From: Pyrenula massariospora | Taxonomy: Eukaryota > Ascomycota > Eurotiomycetes > Pyrenulales > Pyrenulaceae | Assembly (NCBI GenBank): GCA_021030905.1 | Contig: JAGFMI010000002.1 | Location: 1,922,001 to 1,986,000, forward strand | Length of the DNA: 64,000 nucleotides | Reading direction: 5' to 3' | Shown here: positions 6,601 to 62,885 of the stretch, one piece after another | How positions within the stretch are numbered: position 1 is the first letter of the stretch | Layout of the letters: the number at the start of each line of letters is the position of its first letter | Notes under the pieces: model-generated | Told to the model about the DNA's origin: nothing | Database searches by the model: none | What the model saw: the letters and a program-made list of their open reading frames with translations, nothing else | Translations under genes and position numbers: made by a program

Positions 6601-9600
6601 CACCACCCCATCAGGTTCGCGCTTACTGCATCCACGCCGCAAGAGGCTATGTCCAAGATTGAGACCGAGATGAAACGTGTCGGCTCTGGCACTGCCAGGT
6701 CCGCTCCCAGCGACGTCGTCTTCATTTTCACTGGCCAGGGCTCCCACTACGCAGGCATGGGCGCCGAGCTGTACCATACAAGCCCCATCTTCCGCAAAAC
6801 GGTCGATTTGTGTGTCGCGCTCTGTGCCGCCAATGACTTCCCGCCCTTCCTAGACATCATCACCGACAGCGACGTCGACGTATCAGCCAAGGGAAAGAAT
6901 GCCGCGCAGATCCAGCTCGCAATTGTCACGCTGGAAGTGTCACTCACTGCCTTCTGGCAGTCCGCCGGCATAGTGCCTACTGTAGTCATGGGCCATAGTT
7001 TGGGAGAGTACGCTGCCCTGCATGCTGCAGGAGTCTTATCGTTGACCGACACCCTATACCTTGTCGGCCAACGCGCCCGCCTACTTATGCAACGATGCGA
7101 CCCCGACTCTTGCGCCATGCTCTCGGTGTCAGCTTCGGTGGAAACTGTACGAGACCACCTCGCAAAGCTCGGGAACTCGTCCTGTGATGTCGCATGCATC
7201 AACAGCCCCAGCGCTACCGTTATCAGCGGGACGGCCGAGGATTTAGCACAGATCCAGGCGAATATAGCGTCTCAGGATGCAGATACGCGCACCAGAATGC
7301 TGTCCGTCCCGTTCGCATTCCACTCGTTCCAGATGGATGACATACTGCACGACTACGCAGCTCTCGCAAGCGGTGTGACCTATCTACCACCCAAGATCCC
7401 CATGGCATCAACACTGCTCGCATCCCTGGTCAATGAGTCAGGCATCTTTGACGAGAACTACCTCGTCCAGCAGACGCGCCAGGCCGTCGATTTTTGCGGC
7501 GGCCTTAATGCTGTCAAGTCAGTGCTCAAGGACCCGGTCTGGCTAGAGATCGGCCCAGCACCAGTTTGCACATCGTTTGTGCGCGCCACGCTCTCCTCGC
7601 CGTCTGCCAAAATCAACCACACCATCGACGCAAACGTCAGCAATTGGGCATCCATTTCCAAGAGTCTTGCTGCTGCGTACACGAGCGGCGTCGACGTAGA
7701 CTGGCTCGCATTGCACGCACCATACGAGAGCGACCTCGAGCTGTTGCCACTACCGACCTATGCGTGGGACGTCAAGGACTATTGGATCACCCACACTGAC
7801 AGGAACACAACGCTGGTCCCTGCCAAGACCCAGGCTGCAGCCCCATCCGAACCCTTCCTTACCACGACCGCGCAGTACCTCGTCGAGAAGACACTCTCCC
7901 CTAAGGTCCAGGTTACTTTTCGAGCCGGCATTTCGGACCACGGCTTCATGGGCCTTATTGATGGCCACAAGATGCAGCATATCGGGCTTGCTTCGGGGAG
8001 TGTATTTAGCGACGCCGCTGCGACAGTGGCCAAGTATACGTTCGAGTACAGCTGCAGAAAGGGCGTGACGGCGACTCACCTGACGTTCCACGACCCCGAA
8101 CTACTTGCCCCCCTGACGAGGGATCTTGTTGACATTGACGGCGAGCTGCTCTCCACGGCCACCATGGAGAGTGCATCAGCCGATAATATTTTGGTCACAT
8201 TCAAAGCTACCTCAAAGCGTGGCGAGTCCCATGATCTTGGGTCAATGAGAGTTAGGTATCGTAGCCCCGAGAAGGCACAGACTAACTTAGACCGCGTGTC
8301 GTTCTTCATCAAGGAAAAAATGGAAGAGCGGATCCGGCTTTGCAAAGAAGGCTCGGGCCACAGAATCCAGCCTGACATATTTTTTGCGCTCTTCGCCAAC
8401 GCCGTCGAATTCTCCCCCGACTTCCGGGGTATCCAGGAGGCGTATGTAGCCAGCGACTTTCAAGAAGCCGCTGCGACGATTGTACTGCGGCCAGACCCGG
8501 CAGGCACTCGTTTTACATCCTCACCGTACTGGGGCGAGGCTTTGCTGCACCTGGCGGGCTTCATGGTGAACGGGAATCCGAACAAGTCGCCTAAATCGAC
8601 CTTTGTCGTCATGGGCTACGACAGCGTCGAGCAGCTGGCCCCCATCGAGCCTGGCAAGCAGTACCAGACGTACACGCGGATCTCGCGCTGGGAAAAGGAC
8701 ACGGCCTTCTGTGCCGGTTACGTCTTCGATCCGCGGACGTGCAAGATTGTCATGCAGGCCATTGATCTGCGCTACCAGGAGTTCAAAACAGCTACCTGGC
8801 GCCACATTCTTGATGGGCCACACGCTGCAGGACCCCATCATGGGACCGTTGCCTCACAAGCTCACAAGTCAACTGTGGAGGAAGCCAAAACCAACATCCA
8901 CAACGGCCAATCTGCTGTTTTGGCCGCAGTGCCCGTGGAACAGAAATTGGGCAAAACGCAGGACGGCTACGAGGCTCCAGATATGGGAGAATTCCAGGTT
9001 ATCGTGGACAGCCTCGCCACGGCTACCGGAAGCGATGCATCTGAGTTTACAGACGACACTTTAATAGCCGACATCGGCGTCGATTCAATCATGGCTATCG
9101 AGGTCGTTGCCGCCGTCAATGAGTTGGGCGTCGATCTACCCGCCAATTTTGTCTTTGACTATTCTACAATCGGCGAGCTTCGTCGCGCGTTTAGTGGGCA
9201 AGACGCTGAGACCCCAAAGGACGATATCAGCGAGCCGTCTTCTAGTGAAGATGAAGATGTTCTATCTCCAACTCCAGATGAGGACTTTGCCCCCATCTCA
9301 AAACCGGGATCAGTCTCTTCCTTTTCTTCCTTAGCCTCCAGCCTGGCGCAGGTCGAAAAAGAGCCCGCAACTCCCGCACCGGAGGCGGATGACGACACGT
9401 CGCCGCCTCCTAGCGTCAGAATCACGCTGCTGCAGGGCCGGCCAAAGTCCAGCAAGACGCCGATATACCTAATGGCTGACGGCACCGGCACCGTCGCGTC
9501 CTTCATACACCTACGACCTTTCAAGTCCAAACAGACCGTCTACGGCGTCGACTCGCCTTATTTCCGCTGCCCGTCGCGCATGACTAGCAAGGTCGGCATT

Positions 9601-10287
9601 AAGGGCGTGGCCAAGCTAATCGTCGACGCGCTGATCAAAGCGCGAGGCACGGGGCCCTTCCTACTCGGCGGCTACTCAGCCGGCTGCCTCGTCGCCTTTG
9701 AAGTCTCACGCCAGCTGGCCGCCGCCGGGCGCACGGTCGACGGCCTCCTGCTGATCGACATGTGCTGCCCACGGCCGCCGCGGGCGGACCAGCGCACCCT
9801 TCTCGCCGAAGACAAGCTCGCCTACGAGGTTTGCGAGGTTGCTGCCAACAGGGACGGCGTGTGGAGCTCTCTCGGCTCCAGCCGCGACCACCTGCGCGCC
9901 TTTTTCGTCGCCATGAACGAGTACACCCCCGGCCCAATGACATCCGCCGAGCGGCCCGCCAAGACGGCCGTCATCTGGGCCGAGCGCGGCTTGGTCAACC
10001 GCGTGTCTGACGACCCGGCGCTGATGCGGAAGCTGGCGGACCAGGGGATCCCCACAAGGCCTTATCCGGGATACATGGAGGATGCAAAGCTCGGCACGTT
10101 TGCGTGCATGATCCCGGACAAGGGCGGGAGCGAGAATCTTGGCCCTAACGGCTGGGACAGGTACACCGGTGGAGAAGTCCTGGCCCTGTCGGTGGCGAGA
10201 GATCATTTTGAGCTGCCCACACCTCAACACGTTTCTCTTCTCCAGGCACAGATGGAAAGGGCTTTTACGTATTTCTTCGAGAATTAG
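3656..10287 (+). CDS. Non-reducing polyketide synthase, SAT-KS-AT-PT-ACP-TE (RAL-type candidate)
   Basis: Builds and cyclises an aromatic polyketide from malonyl-CoA, probably extending a chain delivered by the divergent HR-PKS. Deduced exons are 3656-3963, 4039-4339, 4419-6044, 6110-6319 and 6385-10287, all in frame, giving 2115 aa. SAT: Ser130 in GISGG, with His256 as the likely partner. KS from about residue 392: Cys568 in DSACAG, histidines in EMHGTGT and NIGHSEA. AT: Ser1020 in GHSLGE. PT: His1343 in DGHK, with Glu1533 where the catalytic Asp is usual. One ACP: Ser1716 in GVDSIM. An acidic Ser/Asp/Glu/Pro linker follows, then TE with Ser1913 in GGYSAG and His2089 in RDHF. There is no C-methyltransferase and no reductive-release domain. 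This order, beside an HR-PKS, is that of resorcylic or dihydroxyphenylacetic acid lactone synthases; the actual product is unknown. 3656 is the first ATG after an in-frame stop. Confidence 0.93.
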
Positions 10288-17065: not shown

Positions 17066-19765
17066 GCCCAAACGCGGATGGAAGCACCACTCGGTATCTG
17101 GATGACATTTTTACGAGGGTGTCTTGTCGGAATATTTTACAATTTTGCGGTATTGGAATAAACGATCTGCTTGATACACAGCGGCCGACGCTTTCGACTC
17201 GAACGCGCCTTATGCCCAAAATAACGACTCTCGCCAACGGAGGATCTACTTTACATCTTGGATTCGAAACATCCATAGAAAGGCTAGCTTAGCCGATTCT
17301 TATCCACAGTCCCTCTAGTACGAGCTTCATAACCGTCAAGATCAACCATGAGCATAATAATAGCGCGTATGCGAATGATATCAACGTCGTCTCCGATCGA
17401 CTCAACGTCCTCTAATGTCAATACTATTTCTATCGCGAAGTCAGGGATAAACTACCTATTCAAAATTGATGGCGCTAGAGTCCTTTAATGATCATTCCAC
17501 CTGGCTGTCCGCGCAATGTAAATATCCAACAAGTTGGTGCTGGTCATTGGGATGTGGATCAGTGGAGGGCTAAACCATTCCTTTCCAGCAAACTTGTCCC
17601 GAGTATTTTCTAGCAAGGCCCTCTAGACAGCTAACCAGCCCGCTAACACCTGTATTTGGCATATTCGGATGGCTTTTCATGTATTTTGTGCAGCATTTTG
17701 TCCCTTTTGATTCACAATCTATACTATTTCAGCCCAATCTTACTATACTTTACTCTGGACCTCGTTGCGCCGTGGACTATGTTATTTTACATCATTTCGT
17801 CATCTCGCCCCCATCGATTCTACTACCGCCTACTTTGCAGCTACTTCTTTACGAGGTGGGATATGGGCCATCGCGGGCTTCACGAAACAAGATTCATGTC
17901 ATCTCTCATACAGAATTCTATGTGTGATAAATTGCCGGGCTAGCTGCCCAGAAGATGCTTGCTAGTTTCCACCCTCTGCGGGACGTTAGATCCCCGGGGA
18001 TTGGCTGGGCTAGTAACGAGACTGCTGTAGTCCACAATATTTTTGCATACGGTCTGTCTGTCCAATCCGGAAAAGTCTCGAACGGACTGTGTGTCCGAGA
18101 TATTGGACCCTAGACTATGATGAAAGCTTGAATGGACAGGACTTGTACCTACAGACCATGTTTGGAACATGTATGAACTTCTTGTCGTGCCTCCCACGTG
18201 AGAGGACAATCGCTTGGCATACCTGCTCGATTAAATTTTGCCAGAGACTATGTCAAGTAAATGTTCACCCGTGCGGCCCCTACGTAGCACATTATAGTAT
18301 TAAGTTAGGTCTATATGGCGGTAGGACTTTATATCTGATTGCTAGTAGAGATCTTAACCCGGTGAAGTTTGTATGACATGGCTAGAAAGTTCCAATACCT
18401 CCATATTGTCGAAAGATGACGAACATAGAATATAAAGACCACTGTACTTGCAATCTTCATCATGGAGGGAAGAGTTTCTGACACAGATTCTCTATAGAAA
18501 CACGTGGGACTGATTATATGACCATGGATCCAGCTCTGCATGTTTAAAATGGCCTATCATGACTGGCTGCAGGTTCTGGTAGGCCGGAATGACTATTTAC
18601 ACATATAGTCCTACCTAACCCTTCTACTCTTCGTGTAGTCCAAAGTCTCTTCATTACCGTAGGATGCACACTAGAAAACGCTCGCTTCTGTCTTTGCATC
18701 GAGGAACCCAGGTAGAAACTTACTCAGTCCCAATCAAGCAGTTAGGGCTTAGGGCGTGATTTATTCCGCCGAGGTACCCGAAGGCGCGCGTGTACACCTA
18801 TCATTCCAGTTCTACAGAATATATCATTAGTGACATTGCGCTGCCAAACAGCTGTTCCTAGAGCCATTCCCTTGCAGTTCCAACATGGCTAGAAAACGCT
18901 TTTGTTCTTCGATAAGGCATGAGCCCTTCGGCCAGTGAGAATGCTATTATGTGAAGGAAGTGGCGTTTCTACCAACAAGGGGTCTTTATAGACTTGAGAT
19001 AAACACAAGATCGAATTTTTATCCTTATCGACACACAGCTTCCATACCCCTAAGCTTCTAGGAACAGGAGCATACTCTTTACGCTATAGAATCCTCAGCA
19101 GTATCTACAGCAGGAGACTATCCAGCACACCAGGACGAGTTTTGGCAAAGAGAAACTTCTTGGATACTGGGTATTAGGCTCGAAAATGACGCTTTGACGC
19201 ATAAGAACGTTACGGCTATTTGGAAAAGTAACGCGGGATTTCCAGCGGGCGACCGAAGAAAGCCACTCAAGAACTGATATAAGGCTGGTCCAGCAAGCTC
19301 AAACCAACCGGTTACTAGACACACTCCCAGCCGCACAAAACACCGAGCAAGTTCCATAACACTCCCATGCTTGATAGATGTCGCGAAAACCTTCAAAGCT
19401 CACAAGCTATCTATGCTAAGATACTTGGCCAAAAGATTTGGGGGTTTCGATCCTCGTTGCGGTTTCTAAGCTGAGGTGGCGCTGCTTTAGCCCGAGGTGG
19501 ACCAGGCAGCCCCCTCACAGCCATTACCTGAGAAGGAAACTTGAAGGTTCAGGGACTCCAGACTTTAAATCACGCGTCAGCCTGTAGGCTGCTGCTTGTT
19601 GCTGCCCCACCCATTCGTTCGACTGAGAAACTCGCTTTAAATTCCAAGAAGCGTCCAGAATTCACTAGGGTGATTGATCAAATGGTTCTTGAATTACACT
19701 AGATCCGCGCACTATAAACCTTATCAGATGTCGCGAAGTTTTGGTGAGCAACTCTCTAGGGGACT
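17066..19765. other. Gene-poor interval
   Basis: 2.7 kb with only short open frames and no recognisable domain on either strand. A Ty or transposon origin cannot be shown by eye. The promoter of the HET-domain gene should lie at the right end. Confidence 0.5.
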
Positions 19766-22564
19766 ATGGATCATCTACCCCTGCCGCAAAACCCATTCTC
19801 GGCTTACCCCCTCGTCGAATGCTTGTGTGCAGCGGAAGCTGGCCCTGATGAATCATTTCGCGTTCAAAAGCTCACGACTTTTGGGTTTTCTCAGGAGCAA
19901 TTCACCGAGAGTGTGATCGAACCAGCTTCGTTATCTCATGCTGCGCCTTTCCTTCAAGCATGGCTATGGTTTGGGACGCTCCAACGCATCTTCGACATCG
20001 TGAATGTGCACTTCAATCCAAGTGAGTTCGTTGTACAAGAAGGTGCCAACGGCCTCCAGCTGTGCACTCGAGCCTTGCATGAATACTTCTGGTACTGGAC
20101 GGCAGCGGAGGCACAAGTCACCGATGACGAGAAAATTCTGCACTGCAGATTGGTTAATGACTGTCTGGACCAGGTGTTTGAAGCTTTGCTGTGCTACGAC
20201 ACCACGGAGGAGAATTCCACATCTCAGATTGAGGACGTTTTCGTATTCGGCCCTTTGTACAAAGACATCGCCTCGAATGTGCTCCTGGCTATCACAGTGC
20301 TAGCCGAAGCTTTGGACTTTGCCCAAGAGTGCATCTACAACGACTTGGATATTGGACGTAGTCGGACATGGAACGATACACTATATATTCGAAAATCTTT
20401 GCTTGAAGCAGGCTGGTGTATCAACGAGCTTGCATGGTTGAACGATCAATTCACCATTGCTCGCGCGACTTCACTCCTCTTTCTCAGCCGCATTGACCGC
20501 AATGTATTCTCAAGAGATCACAGCAAATGCACCGTGGGCTCTTGTGTGTATGAAGAGATTGATTATTCCACCTACCGCCCGAGCCATACCTCCAATGACT
20601 GTATCTGTCACGATGTTGGACTCAGATATGACCGGAACAAGCAGCTGGATTCTATTATCTGTCAGGACAACATACCACTACTAACTTATGAGATGACCGA
20701 CAACTACGGTCCTCAGCTGTGTGTTCATCGATATTCAAACGCAAATGTTAACGTCCCCTATGTCGCAATATCACATGTGTGGTCTGACAGATTAGGTAAT
20801 CTTCGTGACAACGCCTTACCAGATTGCCAGCTCAAAAAGTTGCAAGACAAAGTTAATGCCCTATATCCTTCACGTCAGTGCAACGTACCATTCTGGATTG
20901 ATACCATCTGCGTTCCCAGAGAAAAGACAACACGAGGTCTCGCCATCAACAAGATGAGGGCAGTCTACGAGAGCGCCGAAAAGGTTTTGGTTCTCGATGC
21001 TTCTCTACAAGCGCTCGATTCATCTATTCCTCAAACTGAGCTCTTACTTAGGATCATGATTTGTCCCTGGTCGACACGCTTGTGGACTTATCACGAAGGT
21101 GCTCTCGCGCGTCGCGTGTACTTCCTACTCCAAGACTGTGCGGTGAATGGAGATGGCATCGAGGGACGTTATCATTCTCAGAACGAACAGGCCGTCGGCA
21201 GCGTGAGTGTTGCGGATCTTGTGAAGACTAAAATGAATGAAGAGTATCGACGTTCATTGCTTCGTGCCATTTCACTTAATGAGGATGGTGACACTTTTAC
21301 ATATGGTCAAGAAGAAGCACCAAACTCCCTTTCGGCAGAAGAGCCCGGGTCAAAAGCACGGAGCTCCCAAGACAAAGCGCCCACCATCAATTCAAACTCA
21401 GATGACGATGAGTCTTCAGACTCGTTAGATGCTGAAACATACTTGGATTTCGATGATGAAGAAGCTCTTCATAAGCTCGAGCAGGAGTCCATCGCTAGGA
21501 CCCAAGCTATGCGCGAGGAGAGCGAACGCTTAAAAGCAGAGACTGCCCGGATGGAAGCCCAAGCTGCGGAAATAAGGGCCAAAACACAATCTTTGGCTGA
21601 CGAGGCAGCCCATCTGAAAATGACATCGCTCGGCGGATCGAGACATCACCAAATACCACCCAAAGAACTCCTGACAGACTTACCCGTGGACTTGTTTAGC
21701 TCTCCACCCAAACCAGCTGACAAGAAACTCGCTGCTAATATACAGCGAATCACCATGAACGACGGAAAGTCCCGGTACTGGCTACGCGCATTTAACCCGC
21801 TCTTCCTAGAAGGTGTCGTATCATACATGGATCTCCGCACGTCCTACAAGCGCCTGAACTTGCATCTGCGCACTGGATCCGTCCCCAAGGCCATGCAGAT
21901 CGCCGAGATCATAACGGCCATCCGATGGCGGACAACTAGCTGGAAAAGCGACGAAGCTGTATGTTTCGCCATCATACTAGGCTTAGACGTGGCGAAGGTT
22001 CAAGCTGCGCCTACCGACGACAGAATGAGAGTTTTGGTGAGCCTATGGGAAGAAGTGCCTAGCGCACTGCTGTTCTGCACACCAGATAAAATAGACGCAA
22101 AGGGCTTCAGATGGATGCCTAAGTCCTTTTTACAGACGGGGCTGTACTCCTTGGTAACGAGGCTCGGAGGAAAGGAAGCAGCATCGAGGACTGAAAAAGG
22201 CCTACTTCTCGAAGCTGAAGGTATCATATTCAAACTCACTACAGCGGAGCCTATTGGGGAGATTCTTGCCGTCAAAATGAATGAATACTACACACTGACT
22301 ATCGACAGAGGAACAGAGGAAGACACATGGGATGACCTCCGAGACAAGACAGTCGCAGTATTAATATCCGAACCCTTACAAAAGCGCCTATATCAACGGA
22401 GGATATCCAGTGTCGTTACGAAAGTGATCGAGGAACTCGAGGGGATAACGTACGTCCAGCGAGTTTTTGACGCGAGGATCAACTCTACAGACCAGCTGGA
22501 TAACCTCGTTCTCATTGACAATGTTCGACATGTCGACATCGCTCACCAATGGTGTGTTGATTGA
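19766..22564 (+). CDS. HET-domain protein with C-terminal coiled coil
   Basis: A single uninterrupted 932-aa reading frame. The heterokaryon-incompatibility (HET) domain is marked by YVAISHVWSD at about residue 331, FWIDTICVP at about 377 and INKMRAVYESAEKVLVLD at about 394-412. HET proteins trigger cell death or allorecognition after hyphal fusion, and in this family the domain is the killing module. N-terminal to it is about 320 aa of mostly helical sequence with many Cys and aromatic residues (CTVGSCVYEEIDYSTY, DCICHDVG). C-terminal to it come an acidic Ser/Asp stretch (about 540-570), a charged Glu/Ala/Arg coiled coil (about 572-625) and about 300 aa with no domain I can name. Partner and specificity are unknown. 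The gene is isolated by non-coding DNA on both sides. Confidence 0.85.
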   Translation: MDHLPLPQNPFSAYPLVECLCAAEAGPDESFRVQKLTTFGFSQEQFTESVIEPASLSHAAPFLQAWLWFGTLQRIFDIVNVHFNPSEFVVQEGANGLQLCTRALHEYFWYWTAAEAQVTDDEKILHCRLVNDCLDQVFEALLCYDTTEENSTSQIEDVFVFGPLYKDIASNVLLAITVLAEALDFAQECIYNDLDIGRSRTWNDTLYIRKSLLEAGWCINELAWLNDQFTIARATSLLFLSRIDRNVFSRDHSKCTVGSCVYEEIDYSTYRPSHTSNDCICHDVGLRYDRNKQLDSIICQDNIPLLTYEMTDNYGPQLCVHRYSNANVNVPYVAISHVWSDRLGNLRDNALPDCQLKKLQDKVNALYPSRQCNVPFWIDTICVPREKTTRGLAINKMRAVYESAEKVLVLDASLQALDSSIPQTELLLRIMICPWSTRLWTYHEGALARRVYFLLQDCAVNGDGIEGRYHSQNEQAVGSVSVADLVKTKMNEEYRRSLLRAISLNEDGDTFTYGQEEAPNSLSAEEPGSKARSSQDKAPTINSNSDDDESSDSLDAETYLDFDDEEALHKLEQESIARTQAMREESERLKAETARMEAQAAEIRAKTQSLADEAAHLKMTSLGGSRHHQIPPKELLTDLPVDLFSSPPKPADKKLAANIQRITMNDGKSRYWLRAFNPLFLEGVVSYMDLRTSYKRLNLHLRTGSVPKAMQIAEIITAIRWRTTSWKSDEAVCFAIILGLDVAKVQAAPTDDRMRVLVSLWEEVPSALLFCTPDKIDAKGFRWMPKSFLQTGLYSLVTRLGGKEAASRTEKGLLLEAEGIIFKLTTAEPIGEILAVKMNEYYTLTIDRGTEEDTWDDLRDKTVAVLISEPLQKRLYQRRISSVVTKVIEELEGITYVQRVFDARINSTDQLDNLVLIDNVRHVDIAHQWCVD

Positions 22565-48773: not shown

Positions 48774-48789
48774 GATCAAGCGGGATTTT

Positions 48790-48937
48790 TGTAAAGGCAC
48801 CGTGTCAGGATACTTAGCCAGAATATTTTAATAATTCATTATACTAGTTTTTATTAAAATTAGTTTTTAAAATACTTTTATAAAATACTTTTAAATAAAA
48901 TAATTAATAATATTAAATTTAAAATAATATTTTTATA
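48790..48937 (+). repeat. Left LTR of the retroelement (148 bp)
   Basis: Aligns without gaps to 62733-62880: 111 identical positions and 37 differences, all transitions. The outer 33 bp keep G and C (TGTAAAGGCACCGTG...), while from about 48822 on the left copy is almost pure A/T. Confidence 0.92.
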
Positions 48938-51849
48938 ATTTAATAGTTCGAGCGCCACAAAAAGTTTTTAAAAATTTTTTATATTAAATTTTATACTTTT
49001 AAAAAGTTTATTAAGCTTAATATATTTTATAATATTTTAAAAATTTTTTCGACTTTTTTATCAAAATAATTATTATTATTTTAAAATATATTATTTTTAA
49101 TTGCGGATCTTCGCATTTTAAATATTATTAAATATTTTTATAAATTATTTATTTTTTTTAATTAATTAATTAAATTATTTATATTAACTATACGGATATA
49201 TTATTATTATTAAAATTTTAAAAATAATAATAAACTGAACGACGCAGATTTTGATTTAATTTTTTTTATTTTAAATATTTAATTATAATATATATTATTA
49301 TTTTTTTAATAAAATCTATTTCGAAGTTTAAAGTTTTAAAAAAATTTATAAATTTTATTATAAATCTATTTATAATATATTTAATTTTAATAGTAAATAA
49401 TATTAAAAAAAATAATTTAAATAGAAAATAATGAGAATATTTTTAAACCGTTAAAAATATAGTTTAAATTTAAAAATAAAAAAAGAAAAGAATAAAAATA
49501 TTAATATAAAAATTAAAAAATTTATTTTAATAAATTACTTTATAAAATTATTTTTAAAAATTTATTTTATAAAATCAATTAATTTATTTTTCCAGTTAAT
49601 TATTATTATTTAATTATAATTTTTTTAATTTAAATAGAATTTTTTATATATAATAATATTAATTAATTAAAAATCTGCTTTGACAATATTATTATTATAT
49701 TAAATTTAATTATATATAAATATAAATACTAAAAGGTTTTTATTATTATTAAAAATAATAATAAATAGATCGATAATAGATTAGGCTGTATTATTTAAAT
49801 AAAAAATTATAATTAATATAAATCTATAAAGTAAAATTTAATATTTGGTAAAAAAGTTTAATAAAAATATAATATTATTTTTATATTTTAAAAAATATTA
49901 AGATACTTTCTACGTAAATATAAATATTTATTTATTTATTAAAATAATAAATTTTATTAAAATAAAAAGTTTAAAATAGTTATTAAGTCCGAATAAAATT
50001 AATTAATATAAAAAAAAATTAATAATATATATTTATAATAATAAAAAATATAATTAGTTTATATAATTAAAAAATATTTAAATTTAATTAAAAAAATTTC
50101 GAATAGAATTATTATAATATAAAAAAAATTATAAAAATAGATAAATCTTTTTAATTATATTTTTAAATTTAATAAAAAATAAAAATTTAAATTTTTATAA
50201 ATTTACTTCGACAGAGTTTATTTGTATATAGAATTTAATTATATAAAAGTTATTTACAAGGTTTAAATAAAATTAAAATTATTTTTATAATATTACTTTA
50301 TAAGAATAGATTAGTAAATTTCTATTATTATATTTATAATTTATTTATATGGTTAATATAATTAAGCTATTATTAAAATTTATAAAAGTAAAATTATTAA
50401 AAATTTTGAAACAATAATCTATTTTATTTAAAATAGATATAAAGAAATATTTGAACGATGTTAGATTTATATAAAATAATATAATAAATATTATTTAGAA
50501 AATGCGAAAATAATATAATTAAAAATAATAAAATTAAAATTATAAACTAAATTGTTAAATATATATTTTAAAATACTATATATATTTCAAAAATATAAAG
50601 TATATTTATTTAAATAGCATTTTTAAAATATTATAAAATTATCTTATTTAAAGAGAAGTCGACTTAAACTAATATTATTTATAATTATATAAAAAAGAAT
50701 TAATATATTTATTAAAATTTATATTTATTTTATTAGACTGTTCGTCAAAAATATTTATTATTTAAAAATTAAATTAATTTCGCCAACCTTAACATAAAAT
50801 TATCTCTATAAAATAATTTTAAATAAAATATTAAATTTAAATATTAATTTAATTTTTTTTAATATATTAAATATATTATAAAACGCAGTCTATTTATTTA
50901 ATTTAAATTTAAATTTTATTAATTACAATAATAGTCTGTTTTACTTATTAATTTTTTAATAATAATTTAAAATTAAATAGAATATTTTTTATAATTATTA
51001 AATAAAAAACAGAATCTACAAAATAAATTTTATATTATATAAAAAAAAATTATTTAAATACAGCGAAAAATTTAAAAATTATAAAATTATTAATTAGTAA
51101 TTCAATTTATAAAAATATTTTAAACTATATAGATATTTAATGCAAGAAATATTTTTATATTTATAGTTAAAATATACTAATATAATTAAGATTATTAAAA
51201 TTATTTATAAATATTAAATATTTATAATTATTAAAATTTGCTAATTTAATAATAAATATTTTTTAAATATTTACAATAATTAAAATTTAAAGCTAAATTT
51301 AAAAAAAATAATAAAAATAATAATAAAAAAATAATTTTAAAAACGGAAATCAATATAATTTTTATTTTTTATTAAAATAAAATAATAATAAATATTATTT
51401 TTATAAATACAGCTACTATAGTTGGTTAAAATATAAATATATTTTTAAATTTTATAATATTATAATATTTAATAAATTTTAAAAAATATAAATTTTTATT
51501 AATTGAATTAAAAATATAATTAAAAATATAAATTTTAAACTAGTACTAAAAATATTATTTTATTATTTTAAAAATTATTCGGCTATATAGTATATAAATT
51601 TATTTAAAAAAATTAAATTAAATATATAATATTTTATTGCAGTTTAAATATAAAAATTATACTTAAAATTCGAATAAAATTTTATTAATATTTTAAATAA
51701 AATAAAAATAATAATTTTTTATTTTAATAAAAAATCTAAAAAATTATTTATAATATATTTGATAAAAAAAACTATTTTATTATGCGAGGCTTAAATATAT
51801 AAATTAATTATTATTATAAATAACTTGTTAAAAGGATTGGATTCAAAAT

Positions 51850-51950
51850 TATAAAAAAAAATATTAATTATTTATAAAAAAATATTAATTATTTATAAAA
51901 AAATATTAATTATTTATAAAAAAATATTAATTATTTATAAAAAAATTTTA
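51850..51950. repeat. Tandem array of a 21-bp A/T unit
   Basis: At least four consecutive, nearly identical copies of AAAAAAATATTAATTATTTAT. The uniformity of the copies stands out inside otherwise irregular A/T sequence. Confidence 0.75.
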
Positions 51951-54072
51951 AAATTTTTTAAAATTAAAATGCGCGATATATATTAATCTATTTTATATAT
52001 ATATTAAAAAAATATAAAATAATATTAATATTTTAATTAAATTTAATTAAAAATTCGAAATATATAGTTTCGCTTCTATAATTAATTATATAATATTAAT
52101 AAATTTTAAATAAAATAAACTATATAATATTAAATTACAATATTATAAAATAAAACTGAAATTAAAAAAATTAAAAATTATAAATATAAAAAACTGTAAT
52201 AAAATATTTTATAAAGTTAAAAAAAATTAAAATAAAACTATATACTTTAATCGAAATAAATATTAAAAATATAATAAAATAAAATATTAGGCTCGAAACT
52301 GTCCGAATAAATTAATAAAAATAAATAATTTAAATATTAATTTAAAGACAAATTAAAAAGAATTAAAAATTATTTTTTTTAAAAATAAAGACAACTTTTT
52401 AAATATATTTAATAAAAATAAAAAAATTGCAGCAGATTTTTTTTTTTAAAAAAATTAATTAAAAGAATTTAGAGTGATTAACTTTTTTTATTAAAAAATT
52501 ATTTAAATATTTATTTTTACTTAGTTTATATTTATTTTATTTTTAATTTTAATAAATCAAAAATCTATATATATTAAGTAAATATTAATAAAAAATTCTA
52601 ACTGAAAGTACTACCTAAAAATATTATTTAATTAATATTTAAAATTAATATAATTATTTAACCGAATTACGAATTTAAACAATATTTTTAAATTTTTATA
52701 TTATATTATTTTAATAAGAATTAGTTTATAATATATTATTTTAATATAAATTTACTAATTTTGATAATTAAAAAGCGAATTTTTTAATTATTTTTTTTTA
52801 ATATATAGAAAAAGTTTATAAATATATTAAAATTAATTATAAATAATATAGTTATTAGTAAGAAGAAATAAATTTTAATAATTTTAAAAAATTTTACAGA
52901 TCTAAATATAGTTTATTAAATTTTAAATAATAAATAATTAATAATATCCGCGCGATATTATATTATATTAAATTTAAATTATAAATTACTACTTAAGCTA
53001 AATATTATAATTTTATTATAAATAGAATAAAATTTTGCGCAGTATATTATATTTTAATTAAAATTTTATTTATATATTATACTAATTATATTTATAAAAA
53101 AAAGTATTTTCGATCTGTTGTAAATAACTATATTTTATTATAATATATTAAAAAAATATTCAGATTGAACAAAAATTTAAATTATTAAATATAAAAAGTT
53201 TTAAATTAGGTAATCGAAGTATTAATTTTTTAATATTAAAATATTTTAAATTATTTACAGAGTAATATAAAACTGTTTTAAAAAAATAATAAAATTATAA
53301 TTATTTTACAGATCGATTTAAATTATCTTAAAAATTTTAATTAAAAATAAAGAGAAAGTTTTACTAAATATATATAATAAAAAATAGAATATTAAAATTA
53401 AATTTAAAATATAATATTTTAATAAAATATTGTAAATTATTCGATTTAATAAAAAATATAATTTAAATATTATAATTAAAATTAATATTTAAATTTATTT
53501 TAAATATATTAATATTAATATCTTGTATTATTATAAAGTATAAATAAAAAATTATTTTTCCTTTAAATTTTGAAACGGCAATAGTTAAGGTTAAAAAAAA
53601 ATATTTATTAAAATAATTAATATTATTGAAATATAGTTATACTGTAAAAATAGTAAATAATATATATTTTTAAATTATATTTATAAATATATTAATTAGT
53701 ATAGAAAAGTTAGCGAATTTTTTATTAAATAATTATTTTTAAATAGAAATAGACTTGAAGCGTCTTTATAAATTATTAATTATAAAAAATAAGAAGTTGA
53801 TTGCGGAAGCAGAAAATAATATTTTTAATTATTTTAAATTAATTTTTATTATAAAATTATTATAAATAATTAAAAAGTACATTTATTTATTTTATAAAAA
53901 GATAAAAATTTTTAATAACAGTGTTAAGATATTTATATTCTTTTTAAATAAAAAAAATATAAAAAATTTAAAGCAAGTATTTTATAATCTTTCTCGAAAA
54001 AATTAAATAAAAATAAATAAAATATTTAATACTATATAAGCTACTAATAAAGTTAAATTAATATTTTTAAAA

Positions 54073-54642
54073 AAATTTTTAACGAGTACTAGTTCGGTTT
54101 TTATAATTTAAAATAAAAATAAATTTTATATAATAATTAATTTACAAAGAATAAATATAAAGCTTTATTTTAATATTTATTTTTTATTTAAATAAAATAA
54201 AATTTTAAAGACGCTCGGTAAGAATATAATATTTAATTTTTTAAATATTTTAAAAAAGTTTTTTTAACAGCCTCTGATAAATAAAAACAAATAAAAAATA
54301 ATTTTTATAATTTTATATAAAGATTATAAATAATTAATAATTATAATAATAGATTTAGTTAATTTACCTAATTTTTTTTAATACTGTATAAAAAATTTAT
54401 TAAAATTATATTTATAAATTTTTATACTGATCTATATAAATAATATTATTATATTTTTAAAATTATTAAAAAAATATTTTGAATATTTTAATTAAATACT
54501 TACTATTTTAAAAAATATAAATATTTTTTTAAATATTAAAAAGTACTTTTTCGATTTTTTTAAAATAAAATTATTAAAATATAAAATTTTAAGATTCGGT
54601 ATAAATACGCATAAGAGAAAATTAAAACTATATAAAAACTAA
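54073..54642 (+). pseudogene. Decayed Ty3/gypsy reverse transcriptase
   Basis: One frame of 190 codons, beginning near KFLTSTSSVF, follows the order of a gypsy RT. A YIINLQRINI segment aligns to the usual VDYRxLN block. Then come LGKNIIFNFLNILK (the LDL block), the remains of the GFFQQP motif, NLPNFF (the APxxFQ block), IYINNIIIF (YxDDIIIF with both catalytic Asp codons changed to Asn, GAT/GAC to AAT), and NIKKYFFDF with LLKYKI (the KCxF and LLG blocks). Eight or more TAA stops fall at positions where family members have Gln or Trp. Both features are expected from G to A and C to T mutation. No function remains. Confidence 0.8.
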
Positions 54643-55689
54643 ATTTTTTAAAAATTTTTATATAAATAGAAAGCGAACTAAGACTAATAAGTTATTATTA
54701 ATATTTTATATATTATTATATAATAATAGTAAATTTTATAGTCAGATTAAAAATAGTAAAATTAAAAATTTATTTAATAAAAAATAAAAAGCAATTTTAA
54801 TTTATAGAAGTAATTAAAATAATTTTAAATTCGATTCTAAATATAATATATAAAATTAAATAGAAAAAATTTATTTAATAAATTAAAAAAAGTCATAAAA
54901 ATTTTTAAAAAAGTATTAATTAAAATAACTATTCAAGTCTATTTTAATTTTTTAAAATTTTTTATTTTTTATATTGATAGTTTATATAAATTAAAGCTAA
55001 AAATTACTATTTATCAAATATAAAATAATAAAAAAATATTAATAATTTTTATATTTTAAATTTTAATATTAGCAGAGCGCAACTATTAAACTATTAAATT
55101 TAAAATTTTAATTTTAATATAAATATTATTTAAAATATTTTAATTTTATAATTTAAAAAATTTTATTGTGATAACAAATTATTTTATTTTAATAAAATAT
55201 TTTTAATTAAAAATAAAAAGTAGACAATTAAGATACTTAAATAAATAAATTTTATTTTTATTTATTTTTTTTTTTAAATGTGTATTATATATTGTTGTAA
55301 AAAATTATATATTAATATAAATATTTTATTTTATTTTATTAAAAAAAATATATCAAAATTTCTATTTAAAAAAAAATCTATTTTTATAAAATAAATAATT
55401 GAAAAATTTAAATTTCAAAGCTTTACAATTAATATATTAAATTAAAATAATAATTTTATAAAATATTTAAAAAAAAAATTTAAAATAATCAATAATACCG
55501 CGCTATTTTAATATATTTATAAAATATAAAAAAAAATATCGAAATTAAAAAAAAAAATAATTAAAAATTAAAAATAAACGCATCAAGACTTTATTTTATA
55601 TAATAATAAATTATTATATAATTTTTATAAAGAAAGAGAAAATATGTTTTATATATTATTTTCAATTTAATTAAAAATATTTATTTAAA

Positions 55690-55870
55690 TATATAAGAAT
55701 GCCGCTCATGCTGATATTTATTAACATTATAAAAAAATTTTTAAATTATTTTATATATTTAAATTGAAAGTTTATTTTTAAAAATATATTAAAAAATATT
55801 TCTTATACTAATCGACAAGATTATCTAAATAAAAATTATTTAAAAAATTTTAATTATTTTTAACCCCTTT
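55690..55870 (+). pseudogene. Decayed integrase zinc-binding region
   Basis: In a frame different from the RT, the sequence reads HADIY, stop, HYKKIF (a His pair) and then YFLY about 30 codons on. Integrases have a C-x2-C there, and TGT/TGC to TAT/TAC would give exactly this Tyr pair. The following KLFKKF and FLTPF resemble the start of the integrase core linker in fungal gypsy elements. Weak but in the right place, 1.1 kb after the RT. Confidence 0.5.
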
Positions 55871-58469
55871 TTGTTTATAGTAAATTTTATTTTTAAACTT
55901 TATAATTATATTACCAATTATTAAGAATTTTAATAGTATTATAAATAGTATATATTAATATATTAAATAAATATATAATATATTTAGAAAAGAAAACTAG
56001 TCAATTAAAAAATAAATATTTATATTTTTTAATTAAATTATAAAATATTAGAAATTGTCAAAATATATTTTTTTTAATTAAAATATTAAATTTAACTTTT
56101 TTTTTTAGCAGATATTATTAAAAAATATAAAATACATAAAATTATAACGACTATTTATTATTTATTAATAAATAATTAAATAAAACACAGTATTAAAACT
56201 ATAAAAAAAATTTTTTAATATATAATTATTAATTAATATAAAAAAATATAACTCGATATTTTTTTAAAAGTAAAATTATAATTTAATTTATTAATTAATA
56301 ATATTATGATAAAGTTAGTTTTTAAAATAATATATAATATTTTTTTTAATTTGAACTTTATATTTAGTTTTTTAAAAATAAAAAAAATAAATATTTTTAT
56401 ATAATATTAAAAAATGGTACGGCGAAATACTAAAAATATTATAATTATAATAAAAATAAAGATAGTTATTACTTTCAATAAGTATTATTAATCTGTAATT
56501 TTTAATAATTAAATTTATATTAAAATTATTCTATTCGATAAATCAAAATATTATTTATTTAATTAATTAATTTTATTAATAAGACAAGTTAATTTATTTA
56601 CTATTCAAAAAAAATATTTAATTTTATTTATAAGCTCGATTTATCATTCAGTTATTAAATTTATTTTATTATTTTAATTATTTATTTAAAATAATATAAA
56701 AAAGACAGACTAAATTATTATTTTTTATTATTATTTTTAGTAATTGAAGCGGGTCGAAAATTTTATATAATAAAAAAAATACTTTATCAAAAAAGACGAA
56801 ATGGAATAAATAGTTTAATTATTAAATAAAAAAGATATAAAAATATAATTTAAAAAAAACTAATAAATATTAAAGAAGATGTATTTAAATTAATATAGCA
56901 ATTTTTTTAATAAAAGTTAATTAAATATTTTTAAAAAATATTATTATTATTTAAATTATAATAATAAAAACATTCTCGTCAGAATAGTTATTCGTGTTAA
57001 TAAAAATATTTTTATAAATTATAATAATATGATAAAGTAAGAAAAGGAGTTATTTTTATATTTTAAAAATAATATAAATATTATATATTGTATTTTAATT
57101 TCGATTTTTTTTAGTATTAAGTTTATTGTTATTACAATATATAATTTAATAAATAGTAATTTTTATAAAAATTTTTCGTATTAATTAATTTCCGTCTTTA
57201 AATTTTTTTATTTTTATCTTTATTTTATATCTTTTTATAATTTTTTAATTTGATAAAAATTTTTAGTAGTTATAATTTAAATATTTTAAATATCTATTTA
57301 ACCTTTATATATTTAAAAAATTTTAATTAAAATTAATATAATTAATATTTTAAAGCGCTGATTAAAATTCGAGCTAATTAATAATTAAAAATTAATAAAA
57401 AAAATACATGGTTTTGCTAAACAGTATATTATTTTAATAAAATTTAAATAATTTTAAAATATTTTTATAAAATAAATATTTTATTTTAATCGTATTTTTT
57501 AAAGAGATAATATTTTTATATATAAATTTTTTCGACAAAATTAAATAAAAAAATTACTTTTTTATTACAAAAAGTACTTTTTTAAAATTATTTTTTATAT
57601 TAAAAATACTCTATCTGGTTATTTCGGCAAAGCTATTATATAAAATATATTTTATTAATAATTTAATAAATATCGTTGAATTAATTACTATTGATTTAAT
57701 AATTATTTTAATTTTTATAAATTTATTCTCGCCAAATAATGAAACGTCTAAATGTTAAAAAGTTTTATAAATTAATTACTTTTAATACTATTATATCGAA
57801 ATAGGATATAATTATAATTTAATAAATAAAAAAAAATATAATACTGATCAAATTTTATAAAATATTTAAAAAAAATATAATAAAAAAAGGTAAGGCAACT
57901 AAAGTTCTTTAAATAGTATTTAATATTTATAATTATATATAGATAGATACTAAACGATTTTAATTAGATTTTTAATTAATTTAATTAACTACTTTTCGAT
58001 ATCGGTTATTATTCAAATAATAATATTTTAACTTATATATATTTTACTTTTTATTTAATTTTTTAAATAAAAAAATTAAATACCTCTATTATTACTACTA
58101 TTTAAATTATAATTCTGAGTAAAAATATACCCTTAAAAAAATTATTTTATAAAATTTAAATAAAAAAATCGATTTAGTAAAATCTATTTTTTATATATAA
58201 ATATTTAAGTAATAAATATATTATTTTTATTATTTTTTCTAAATCGATATTAAAAAAGGACAATTTAATTAAAAAAATAAAAAATTATATTATACTAAAA
58301 AAAAAAGATTAAGAAGTATTATTTTTTTTTATAAATAATATATTTAAAAGTACCGATTAAAAAATTTTAAAAAAAATATTAAATAATAAATTTAATAACT
58401 ATTTTTATTTTTATTAATTTTTTTTTAAATTTCAATATATTATAGAAAATATTAAATTTTTTTTTTAAA

Positions 58470-59390
58470 AAACATTTTTTCTAACTGCTCACTATAATTA
58501 TAATATATAATTTAAATTTAAAAATCGAAATACAATTTAAAGTAAATAATATTAATATTAAATAATTTTATTATAGTATTTTTAAAAATATATTAAAAAT
58601 AGAAAGATTTAGTTATATTAAAAATTATAAATTATTAATATTAAATTAATTTTTTAAAATTTATTTTCAACTTATTTTTTATAATTTTTAAAAAAAATTA
58701 AAATAACTACTTAAAACGCGAAATAGTTATTTTATTATTTAAAATTTTAATTTTAATTTCGAAGCAGCCGAAAAATTTATTATTTAAAATTTAAATATTA
58801 ATTTAATAAAATTTAATCAGTTTACAAAAATATTTAAAAAATAAAAAGATAATTTTAATTATTTTATTTATTTCATTTAAAAAATTAATAAATTTAATTA
58901 ATATTAGAGAAAATTACAATATATTAAAAAAATTTTTATTAAATAAAAATTTTTCGTCGACCTAGATTGTATATTTTTTAATATTAATTATTAAATATTA
59001 AAATGATTAATAGGTAGTTAATTTTTTAATAATTTTAATATTTATTAATTCTTTTAATTTATTACTGTTATTTTTAAAAAATAATAAAAATTTTTTTTAA
59101 ACAGTTTTTTTTTTCTCTGCTTATTATAATTATAATTTAAATATTAATTTTAAAAATTATAATTAATAAAAATAAACTAAGTAATATAATTATTAAAATA
59201 TTATATTAAAATATTTTTAAAAAATATATTAAAAAAATTATTATCTTAAAAGTTATAAATTATTAATATTAAATAAATATTAATAACGAAGTACTTTTTA
59301 AATTATTTTTTATAATTTTTAAAGAAAAGTAAAATTTATACTAAGAATTTAAATTAAAAATTATTTTTTTATTATTTAAAACTTTAACTG
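58470..59390. repeat. Diverged tandem duplication inside the A/T island
   Basis: The segment around 58475-58760 resembles that around 59100-59390 (shared TTTTTCT..CT, ACTATAATTATAAT, AAAAATATATTAAAAA and TTATTTTTTATAATTTTTAA blocks in the same order, about 625 bp apart). A 24-bp unit repeated about three times follows at 59409-59480. Low base complexity makes by-eye alignment uncertain. Confidence 0.4.
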
Positions 59391-62300
59391 CTTCGACTGA
59401 ACTTATTTTAACTATTTTAATTAAATTTATATTAACTACTTTAATTAAATTTATATTAACTGTTTTAATTGAATTTGCTGAAAATATAAATATGTTATTA
59501 TTATTTATAACCAGTTTATTATTATTTATAATTAATTTATAAAAATTATAATATTTATTTAAACTAATTATTAAATTTATAAAAAATAAAATAAGCTATA
59601 ATTTTAATACTATTTAATTAAAAAATAAAAAAAAGAAGTTATTTAAAGTAGTAATTTTTTATATTTAATTAAAAAACTAATTATTTATACTTTATTTATT
59701 AATTAATTTAAAAAAAATAAAAAACTATTTTATAAAAATATTTATATTTTTAAAGATCGAAATAACTATTAAAAAATTTAAAATAAAATTATTTAATTTA
59801 ATAATATTTAAATTAATAAAATAAAAAAAAATTATTAATATTAAAATTAAAAAAAATATTATTAATTTAAATTTTAACTAAAAAAAACAACCTGTTCAAT
59901 TTGAAAAATTTATAAATAATTAAAATAAATAAAAACTCTTTTTCTTTAATTATTAAAAATAAATCATTTAATAAAATTTAACTTATCGAAATTAAAAAAA
60001 AGCTTAAATTATTAAATTTAATTATAAATTTAAAAAATAAAAATGTAAGCGACAATACAGTATTTATTATATTTATATATTAAATAAATAAAAAAATGCT
60101 GAAAACAGTTTATATTTTTATTAAATTTAATTAAAATAAATATAAAATATTAATTTATAAAAAAAAATAATTAAAAATACTGTAAATTTTAAAAAATAAT
60201 TTTTTTTAATTATTAAAAAGACAAGTTTTAATAAATAAAATATAATAATAAAAATAAATTAAAGTTTATATATTAATATTATTTAAATTATTTAAACAAT
60301 ATATTTTATTATTAAACCCTCCAATTATTAATATTATTTTATTTTATATAAATATTATTCGCTTAAAATATATTAAAGTTAAATAAAAATTTTAATTATT
60401 ATTAATTTATATTAAATTTAAATATTTCTACTAAAAAAACTGCTTATTATAAATAGTAAATTTTAAAATAATATTAGAGCCGATCAAAAAATTAATTTTA
60501 TATATATATTTTATAAAATTTAAAGTATTTTAATTAAATCTTTAAAATATTTATAAAGTTTTTTATAATTATTTATAATACAAATTAAATCAAAATTATA
60601 ATTTTTAAAAATAAATTAAAATAATATAATACAGTTAATAATAATAATATATTAATAAATATTAAACTATATTTCTACCTCATATTTATAAATAATTTTT
60701 ATAAAATAAAAATTTAAAAATTTATCTATTTATTAAATTTAAATTATTATTTAATAAATATATAATTTATACTGCTCCATAAAAATATTAAAATAAATTT
60801 TATATTAATTTTAATAATATAAATTTTAATTTTTAATAATATTATATTTATTATAATTTTAAATAATAAAAATATTCGATTCGCAATATATTAAAAATAA
60901 TTAATAATTTTAAATATTACTTTTAAATAAAACTTAAAATTATATAAAAAAATAATCAATTTATAATAAATAAAATTAGCTATTTTTATTTTATTTTTTT
61001 AAATAATTAAACTATTTCGTAAAAAGACTTTATTTAAAAAAATATATATAAATTAAAAATAATTTTAAAAAAAATAAAAATTATAAATAATATATTTTAA
61101 TTTTAAAAAATATTTTATTACAAAATAATTATATTAAAATAATATTAATAAAATAATTAATTATTATAAATAAATACATTACTAAATATATTTTTAATTT
61201 TATTAATTTAAATAAAATAAATTATCAAGTTGAAAGTAAATTTTATTAATTATTATTAAAATTTTATAAATAATATAATTATTTAAATTTTTATATTTAT
61301 TTTAAAACTAGCTTTTAAATATTAAATAAAAATAAATAAATATTATATCTTTTTGTACCGAAAAAGTATATTTTTAAAAAATAGATTAAAAAATAAAATT
61401 AATAATAAAATTTTAATTTAAAAAAAATAAATAAAATTTAAATATAAAAAAATTTTTAAATTTAATTATTAAAATTTTAAAAAAATATGTAAAAAAAAAT
61501 ACTTTAAAAAAATAAAATAAAAAAAATAAAAAAAATTCTATTTAGTAGCAAAATTTTATAAATTTATAAAAAAAATATTTAATATTAAAATTATAATATT
61601 TTATTATTAAAAATTAAAAAAAAATTTAAATTAAAAACCTAATCCGAATAAATATATAATTAAAATAAAATAAATATATTTAATTATTAAATTAAATATA
61701 TATATTATTTATAGAAAAAAATAATATTTTTTTTAAAATTTAAAAAAAAAAAAACTATTATAGCAAAAAATTTAATATTAAATATAATTAAAAAAATAAA
61801 TAAAGAAAGTAATATTAAAAAAAAAATAATAAAACAAAAAATAAAAATAAAAAAAAAAAATAAAAAAAAAAATAAAAAAATTATAACTGTAAACTGCTTT
61901 AAAATTTAATAATAATAAAATATTTATTTTATTAATATTTAAAAGTAAAAATAAAAAGTCGAAAATTATAATTAAATAAAATAATATATATAAATTATTT
62001 ACTTTATTTATAAAATATATAGATAAACAAATTAAAATTTTAAAAATTTTAATATTTATTATTAATTTTATATAAAAAGCTAATTTCGAAACCGATATAT
62101 TAATATTTATATTTATTAAAATTATTAATAATAACTAAATATACTCCGCGCTGAAATATATATTTAAAATAATTAAAATTTAAAAAAATTATAATAAATA
62201 AATTAAATATACGCGCATAATAAAAAAGTAAATTAAAAAAATAATTATAAAAACTAATTAATATATCGAAAAAGTAAAAAAAAAAATTAAATAAATTTAT

Positions 62301-62585
62301 AAAAATATAGATAGAACTATGCGAATAATTTATTAATTTAAAAAAATAATATAATTTATAAAATTGATAAAGCGAGTAATAAAAAATATTATAAAATATT
62401 TTTAAAATATAAACTGAAAACTATTTATAATAAATATAAAAATTAAAAAAATTAAAATTTATAACCGAATAAAAATATTTAATTAAAATTATATATTATT
62501 TTATAAAAAATTAGTTATACAGCCTATCAATAATAATAATAAAAATAATAAAAATAATAAAAAAAAAATAGATAAAAAAGTAAAA

Positions 62586-62640
62586 AAAAATAAAAAATAA
62601 AAAATAAAAAATAAAAAATAAAAAATAAAAAATAAAAAAT
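62586..62640. repeat. AAAAAT hexanucleotide array
   Basis: About eight head-to-tail AAAAAT units shortly before the right LTR. Probably a by-product of the A/T bias. Confidence 0.7.
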
Positions 62641-62732
62641 TAAATTTAAATCTATTTTAAAAAAATATATTAAATTAAAATATATTATAATAATTATTAT
62701 TATAAATAATAATTTTTTAAAAAAAAACAGAT

Positions 62733-62880
62733 TATGAAAATATTGTATTAAAATATTTAATTAAAATATTTTAATAATTTATTATATTAGTTTTTATTGA
62801 AATTAATTTTTAAGGTATTTTTATAAAGTGTTTTTAAATAGAATAACTAATAATATCAGACTTGAAATGATGCTCTTACA
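62733..62880 (+). repeat. Right LTR of the retroelement (148 bp)
   Basis: The inner part is A/T-only, while the last 60 bp keep G and C (for example CAGACTTGAAATGATGCTC). It ends CA, immediately followed by the ATTTT target duplication. It is the mirror image of the left LTR, which is intact at its outer left edge. Confidence 0.92.
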
Positions 62881-62885
62881 ATTTT

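Follow-up and report, generated by a model that had tools for sequence, protein, structure and literature searches.

A 14.1 kb element in the genome of the ascomycete Pyrenula massariospora may bear on how repeat-induced point mutation (RIP) picks the cytosines that it mutates and on why it stops. It is located at positions 48790-62880 of a stretch of 64,000 nucleotides (contig JAGFMI010000002.1, 1,922,001 to 1,986,000), hereafter called the window. It is a long terminal repeat (LTR) retroelement, with direct terminal repeats of 148 bp (48790-48937 and 62733-62880). Its outer ends keep TG (5') and CA (3') and are flanked by a target-site duplication, ATTTT (48785-48789 and 62881-62885), as the initial annotation of the window had described; all window coordinates refer to the forward strand. 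The LTRs are offset by 13,943 bp and enclose 13.8 kb of RIP-saturated DNA (48938-62732) with a GC content of 8.4% and an observed/expected CpG ratio of 5.05. In 1-kb windows wholly inside this interior the GC content was 5-11%, and with regard to a possible gag-pol region, the longest stop-to-stop frame was 118 amino acids of low complexity. By eye, the sequence proved too heavily mutated for a primer binding site or a polypurine tract to be called. The 5-bp duplication suggests that the element was inserted once here, after which RIP would have driven its GC content down to about 8%.

Spacing of the surviving G/C

The G and C that remain in the interior are spaced quasi-regularly, a feature that the initial annotation had missed. 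They were found to form 310 islands with a median span of 8 bp, 3.7 G/C each and a mean spacing of 44.6 bp. Examples are found just inside the left LTR (48951-48968), at 52939-52964, where several CpG and GpC are present, and at 55488-55506 and 62135-62162. The pair correlation of G/C positions showed a minimum of 0.26 at 26-30 bp and a maximum of 1.48 at 51-55 bp, and the two halves of the element behaved much alike.

In the genome (37.8 Mb in 33 contigs, labelled Cn), five saturated blocks were compared, namely the window element at C22:1970790-1984880, L044 (on C19), L045, L046 and L047, with L045 and L046 on different contigs. Using 1000 block shuffles as the null, the pair correlation at 21-35 bp was 0.365 in the window against 0.997 ± 0.045, which is 14 standard deviations (sd) below the shuffles. 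The corresponding values were 0.221 against 0.992 ± 0.101 for L045, 0.384 against 0.992 ± 0.074 for L046, 0.683 against 0.991 ± 0.089 for L044 and 0.664 against 0.993 ± 0.126 for L047. At 46-56 bp the correlation rose to 1.455 (window), 1.583 (L045), 1.392 (L046), 1.265 (L044) and 1.80 (L047, shuffles 0.99 ± 0.14). The dip was observed in all four strand combinations in the saturated blocks tested.

With expectations calculated from density, ignoring clustering, no CpG pair 18-36 bp apart was found in the window (20.9 expected), one in L045 (15.6), none in L046 (11.4) and none in L047 (2.2); pooled over the five blocks, 4 were observed and 53.2 expected. A null that preserves the CpG/GpC islands was applied to gaps of 18-36 bp, with 3 observed against 25.6 ± 4.2 in the window, 2 against 11.1 ± 2.9 in L045, 4 against 14.5 ± 2.9 in L046, 4 against 5.9 ± 2.0 in L044 and 0 against 3.2 ± 1.6 in L047. 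The exclusion is thus strong in three blocks; L047, where sites are few, is in line with it, and for CpG it is not seen in L044.

The RIP-degraded DNA fell into two classes. The window element and L044-L047 have 6-10% GC and a CpG observed/expected ratio of 4-9, versus 17-21% GC and a ratio of about 1.1 in two blocks on C22, designated A and B. In the latter, CpG/GpC pairs presented a narrow dip at 18-21 bp (29 against 65.1 and 2 against 15.4) and little beyond. The dip seems to vary with strand order, lying near 19 bp for C..C and G..G and near 20-22 bp for G..C; in block A a C..G dip lies near 25-26 bp.

Ancestral composition and action within one molecule

The spacing could have been inherited from the ancestral sequence, or it could have arisen from sequence context; both origins are disfavoured by a thinned flank, the block shuffles and a comparison of L045 with a relative. 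The unmutated flank (16.0-48.7 kb of the window) gave a flat curve at these distances, either raw or thinned according to the trinucleotide survival of the element, and after thinning the pair correlation at 21-35 bp was 1.05. Four relatives of L045 were aligned and two were analysed. Compared over 1893 columns with a relative in block A that is less mutated, L045 retained the relative's G/C sites at a mean of 0.274. When ordered by distance from a survivor, survival fell to 0.08 of the mean at 26-30 bp (46 site pairs) and to 0.06 at 31-35 bp (66 site pairs), amounting to about 2 of 112 site pairs.

L045 and L046 are related over about 2.6-2.7 kb, and each could be examined for sites specific to its own copy. 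At 21-35 bp, copy-specific sites avoided others of the same copy (0.26-0.48), while the cross-copy values were 0.99, 0.72 and 1.27. As the avoidance holds inside a copy and not across copies, the rule operates within single molecules, and part of the choice is random. Mutual avoidance of islands at 20-35 bp is thereby shown for each DNA copy taken by itself. L047 had been considered a homologue of the window element on account of 11 shared seeds, but this was rejected, as the alignment scores (200.5 and 243.5) were below the null (266.5).

LTR pair, solo copies and spared tips

The ungapped alignment of the two 148-bp LTRs and their 37 differences, all C/T or G/A, were borne out, as was the presence of CpA, CpT, CpC and one CpG among the differing sites. 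Written as purines and pyrimidines the two copies match at 148 of 148 positions, against a mean of 74 (sd 6) for placements in 244 kb, and therefore a chance likeness is excluded. The purine/pyrimidine string is unchanged by RIP, so it can be used to find and align repeats degraded to 8% GC.

The proposed alignment of LTR copies across the genome recovered at least five further ones, apparently solo and lying in DNA of ordinary GC content, which supplied an unmutated yardstick for the edges. Those at C32:522540-522688, C6:454697-454845 and C29:1656679-1656798 (matched part) carry 5-bp target duplications; no matching duplication was found around C33:623918-624066 and C28:546663-546809. The C28 copy, which shows 10-14 transversions relative to the other solo ones, looks older. 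All five found keep 41.6-44.2% GC, versus 14.9% in the left and 12.8% in the right LTR of the window, in agreement with an escape of short repeats from RIP; the sample is possibly biased to unmutated copies, as mutated ones are hard to recover with these queries. The C32 copy is identical to both window LTRs in purines and pyrimidines, and is separated from them by transitions only (41 and 46).

Taking the C32 copy as reference (63 G/C sites), the left LTR has lost 41 and the right LTR 45, with 25 sites lost from both and 2 from neither. Comparison of the window pair alone conceals the 25 shared losses and misreads the left edge. In the left LTR, 7 of 23 G/C were lost in the outer 33 bp (48790-48822) and 34 of 40 in the remainder (Fisher p = 2e-5). 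Of the G/C in the right LTR, the inner 88 bp have lost 42 of 48 and the outer 45 bp (62836-62880) 1 of 11 (Fisher p = 1e-6, leaving out the four sites at positions 89-103, two of which are mutated). Within the pair, differences that keep G/C in the left copy lie nearer the 5' end than those that keep it in the right copy (one-sided Mann-Whitney p = 8e-6). Position 4 opposes the pattern, with A in the left and G in the right copy; the C29 solo copy also has A. The initial annotation had described sharp edges. The outer tips are truly spared, but the left edge is graded, and the sparing is a gradient of 30-60 bp and not a sharp line.

Six repeat pairs were viewed and three, including the window pair, were tested for outer sparing. 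It was also found in a 104-bp LTR pair (C22:1890045/1910039, with GAGCA on both sides; p = 0.0015) and in a 438-bp pair without a clear target duplication (C22:1997334/2003720, AAAAT/AAAAA; p = 0.0005), which indicates that the edge effect is not peculiar to the window element. In the three tested pairs all 127 differences were transitions (37/37, 20/20 and 70/70). The remaining pairs, A1, 1902313/1908466 and 1898201/1902313, had unclear ends or an unclear alignment and were set aside; in both A1 and 1898201/1902313, the matching part includes at least one transversion. The 104-bp pair bounds a degraded 20-kb element (C22:1890045-1910142; L033, L032 and L031) with a GAGCA duplication; nested within this element are degraded copies that are akin to a family whose LTRs measure about 440 bp.

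A second copy of the interior was sought in the genome with positions 53500-57000. Among the matches listed (40 of 80 candidates scored), the non-self ones were 64-79% identical on both strands and were rejected as homologous copies, being attributable to AT-richness: by our own estimate a saturated copy should be about 86% identical. The same kind of search did recover copies of L045 at 88%. The five solo LTRs indicate that other insertions of this LTR family existed. Shortly before the right LTR, at 62552-62650, an A-rich run with TAAAAAA-like units is present.

Sequence context and the methyltransferase gene

RIP had been described as relaxed in its context. In the inner LTR parts this description holds, since CpA (19 of 21), CpT (26 of 32) and CpC (27 of 29) were nearly all lost. 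It fails in the interior, where cytosines beside G resist strongly: survival, expressed as C/(C+T), was 0.87 in GCG and 0.03 in TCA.

The suggested search for a RID-type methyltransferase, made with PF00145, gave one gene with two matches (C10:498353-499299). In its catalytic part a PCQ triad is present and ENV is replaced by EQT; excerpts of PMC6709928 describe EQT as marking the RID/Masc1 group. No second C5-methyltransferase was found by the PF00145 search of the genome, and so a DIM-2-like enzyme may be absent. The RID-like gene and a neighbour on the same strand, which encodes an HhH-GPD base-excision glycosylase domain, occupy L024:3324-5194 and L024:6545-8185 (C10); a functional link of this neighbour to RIP or to RIP repair is conceivable. 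Taken together, the transitions-only divergence, the RID-like gene, the unmutated solo LTRs and the outer sparing in two more pairs support the view that the window element is a RIP-mutated LTR element of a known kind with spared outer tips.

A proposed distance rule and its alternatives

The avoidance between islands leads us to infer that the mutating step is neighbour-dependent. A RIP-mutated element together with such a step could, as a whole, account for the locus with about an even chance. Slightly less secure is the specific form that we propose, in which the mutating step would require that the same DNA molecule carry another intact target at a distance of about 18-36 bp. A resistant cytosine, next to G, would be struck efficiently only with another unmutated target at this distance, which corresponds to two to three helical turns; such a need could arise from a methyltransferase that is dimeric or processive. 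RIP would continue until each surviving island stood isolated, leaving a ladder with a spacing of about 50 bp. The tips might perhaps be spared because no homologous DNA, and so no neighbours on that side, lies beyond them.

The proposed rule was simulated by letting the strike rate at a site depend on how many intact G/C lie about 25 ± 6 bp from it. The simulation gave a GC fraction of 0.08, 3.6 G/C per island and a spacing of 44 bp, against 0.084, 3.7 and 44.6 observed, and reproduced the shape of the pair-correlation curve with a root-mean-square (rms) deviation of 0.112. A rule accepting any neighbour within 35 bp was rejected for its poor fit (rms 0.303; 2.3 G/C per island). Requiring neighbours on both sides came nearer to the tips, but the peak was too high (1.94) at 8.5% GC.

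Several observations weigh against the two-site rule. L044, at 8% GC, showed no CpG exclusion (3 pairs against 3.4 expected), also with its tandem-repeat part set aside, and its peak alone falls inside its shuffles (maximum 1.409). A second relative of L045, aligned over 733 columns in a less saturated part, gave no clear dip. The G/C sites common to L045 and L046 are five times above chance, which means that sequence matters too. At 20% GC the simulation predicts a dip to about 0.76, while blocks A and B showed only 0.87-0.98 at 21-30 bp. It also leaves 0.61 of the tip sites mutated, and the both-sided form 0.08 and then 0.65 per 10 bp, so that both forms fall short of the observed tip sparing of 30-45 bp. 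A protected-patch model fits slightly better, and all the evidence comes from the sequence of one genome. As for L044, the region L044:3500-7700 (C19) holds tandem repeats of about 15 bp near 4888-5466.

The main rival, possible though distinctly less probable than the two-site rule, is that where two homologous duplexes pair, each contact shields some 10-20 bp, no two contacts lying closer than about 40 bp. The unshielded DNA between contacts would be mutated and the DNA beyond the outermost contact, that is the tips, would not; G/C-rich patches would attract the contacts and so fix the ladder. This would explain the ladder and the tip sparing together. A protected-patch simulation with an exclusion of 42 bp gave the best fit to the pair correlation (rms 0.082), and a model of paranemic relation in the Discussion of PMC4858203, as excerpted, allows at most one contact per about 55 bp, near the peak at about 50 bp. 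The five best unthinned patch fits, however, had 18-22% GC and 8-11 G/C per island, versus 8.4% and 3.7 observed. Contacts would be expected at homologous places, yet the sites peculiar to L045 are independent of those peculiar to L046; the contacts would also need to be stable, as saturation presumably took many rounds. An array of chromatin or DNA-binding protein footprints of about 40-50 bp, guarding short cores during RIP, would give the same shape of pair correlation as protected patches and would agree with the dip in every strand combination. Its cores would need to be rich in CpG/GpC and to differ between copies, and we consider it improbable. We know of no protein with a footprint of about 40-50 bp in the setting of RIP.

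Plain RIP with a context preference only, the ladder being due to chance or ancestral inheritance, is very unlikely. The context dependence is indeed strong, and the lack of a clear exclusion in L044 (for CpG) and in the 733-column comparison speaks in its favour. Against it stand the flat result of context-only thinning of the real flank, the distance of the window value from the block shuffles and the loss from L045 of the relative's G/C at just the excluded distances. An artefact of assembly or polishing, to which extremely AT-rich DNA could be prone, appears just as implausible: the LTR copies differ by transitions only, the purine/pyrimidine identity of L045 and L046, assembled on different contigs, is 0.97-1.00 per 200 bp over about 2.6 kb, and an assembly limit would bar long AT runs, not short ones.

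Between shielded patches and the two-site rule the data do not decide. The two-site rule, although unproven, is preferred, because the CpG methylation activity of DNMT1 depends on neighbours over a similar range of about 35 bp (PMC11662662, in excerpt). If it is true, saturated repeats would end up with G/C islands standing alone at intervals of about 50 bp, and RIP-degraded repeats would be a fossil record of the two-site geometry of the methyltransferase. More generally, a fixed minimum distance between survivors, if it holds, would allow the geometry of the mutating complex to be read from sequenced RIP-active genomes without experiment.

Relation to known systems

Already known are the action of RIP on LTR elements, the sparing of solo LTRs and a divergence made up of transitions only. 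The locus resembles RIP in Neurospora crassa and other ascomycetes in its exclusive C-to-T and G-to-A changes, in the presence of a RID-like methyltransferase gene and in the action on long repeats. It differs in a GC content lowered to about 8%, in the best survival of cytosines beside G and in the ladder of survivors at about 50 bp. For N. crassa, a clustering of RIP hits is reported in PMC7296669. For the crapaud LTR element of Podospora, excerpts of PMC10787394 describe that RIP affects the LTRs of full copies and mostly not those that are solo or in fragments. The solo LTRs described here are likewise largely spared, and the window element differs in its 148-bp LTRs and its length of 14 kb; neither a tip gradient nor an island spacing was found in the excerpted crapaud account. 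The AT-rich elements of Aspergillus flavus (PMC9910759, in excerpt) are similar as RIP-degraded Gypsy copies with solo LTRs and very rare transversions, and the excerpts do not treat edges or the spacing of residual G/C. PMC11969663 gave no match to edge, periodic or spacing terms. In the open-licence literature searched, seen in part, no description of the tip gradient or of the island ladder was found, which does not prove its absence. The account of DNMT1 and solo-WCGW CpGs (PMC11662662) offers, as far as its excerpts go, a parallel both in the neighbour range of about 35 bp and in the escape of isolated CpGs from a methyltransferase; it concerns human maintenance methylation and not mutation, and is an analogy of working only.

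Surroundings of the element

Elsewhere in the window, pieces of a polyketide synthase (ketoacyl synthase, acyl transferase, acyl carrier protein and thioesterase) and a HET-domain gene were observed at 4419-10284 and 19760-22561.

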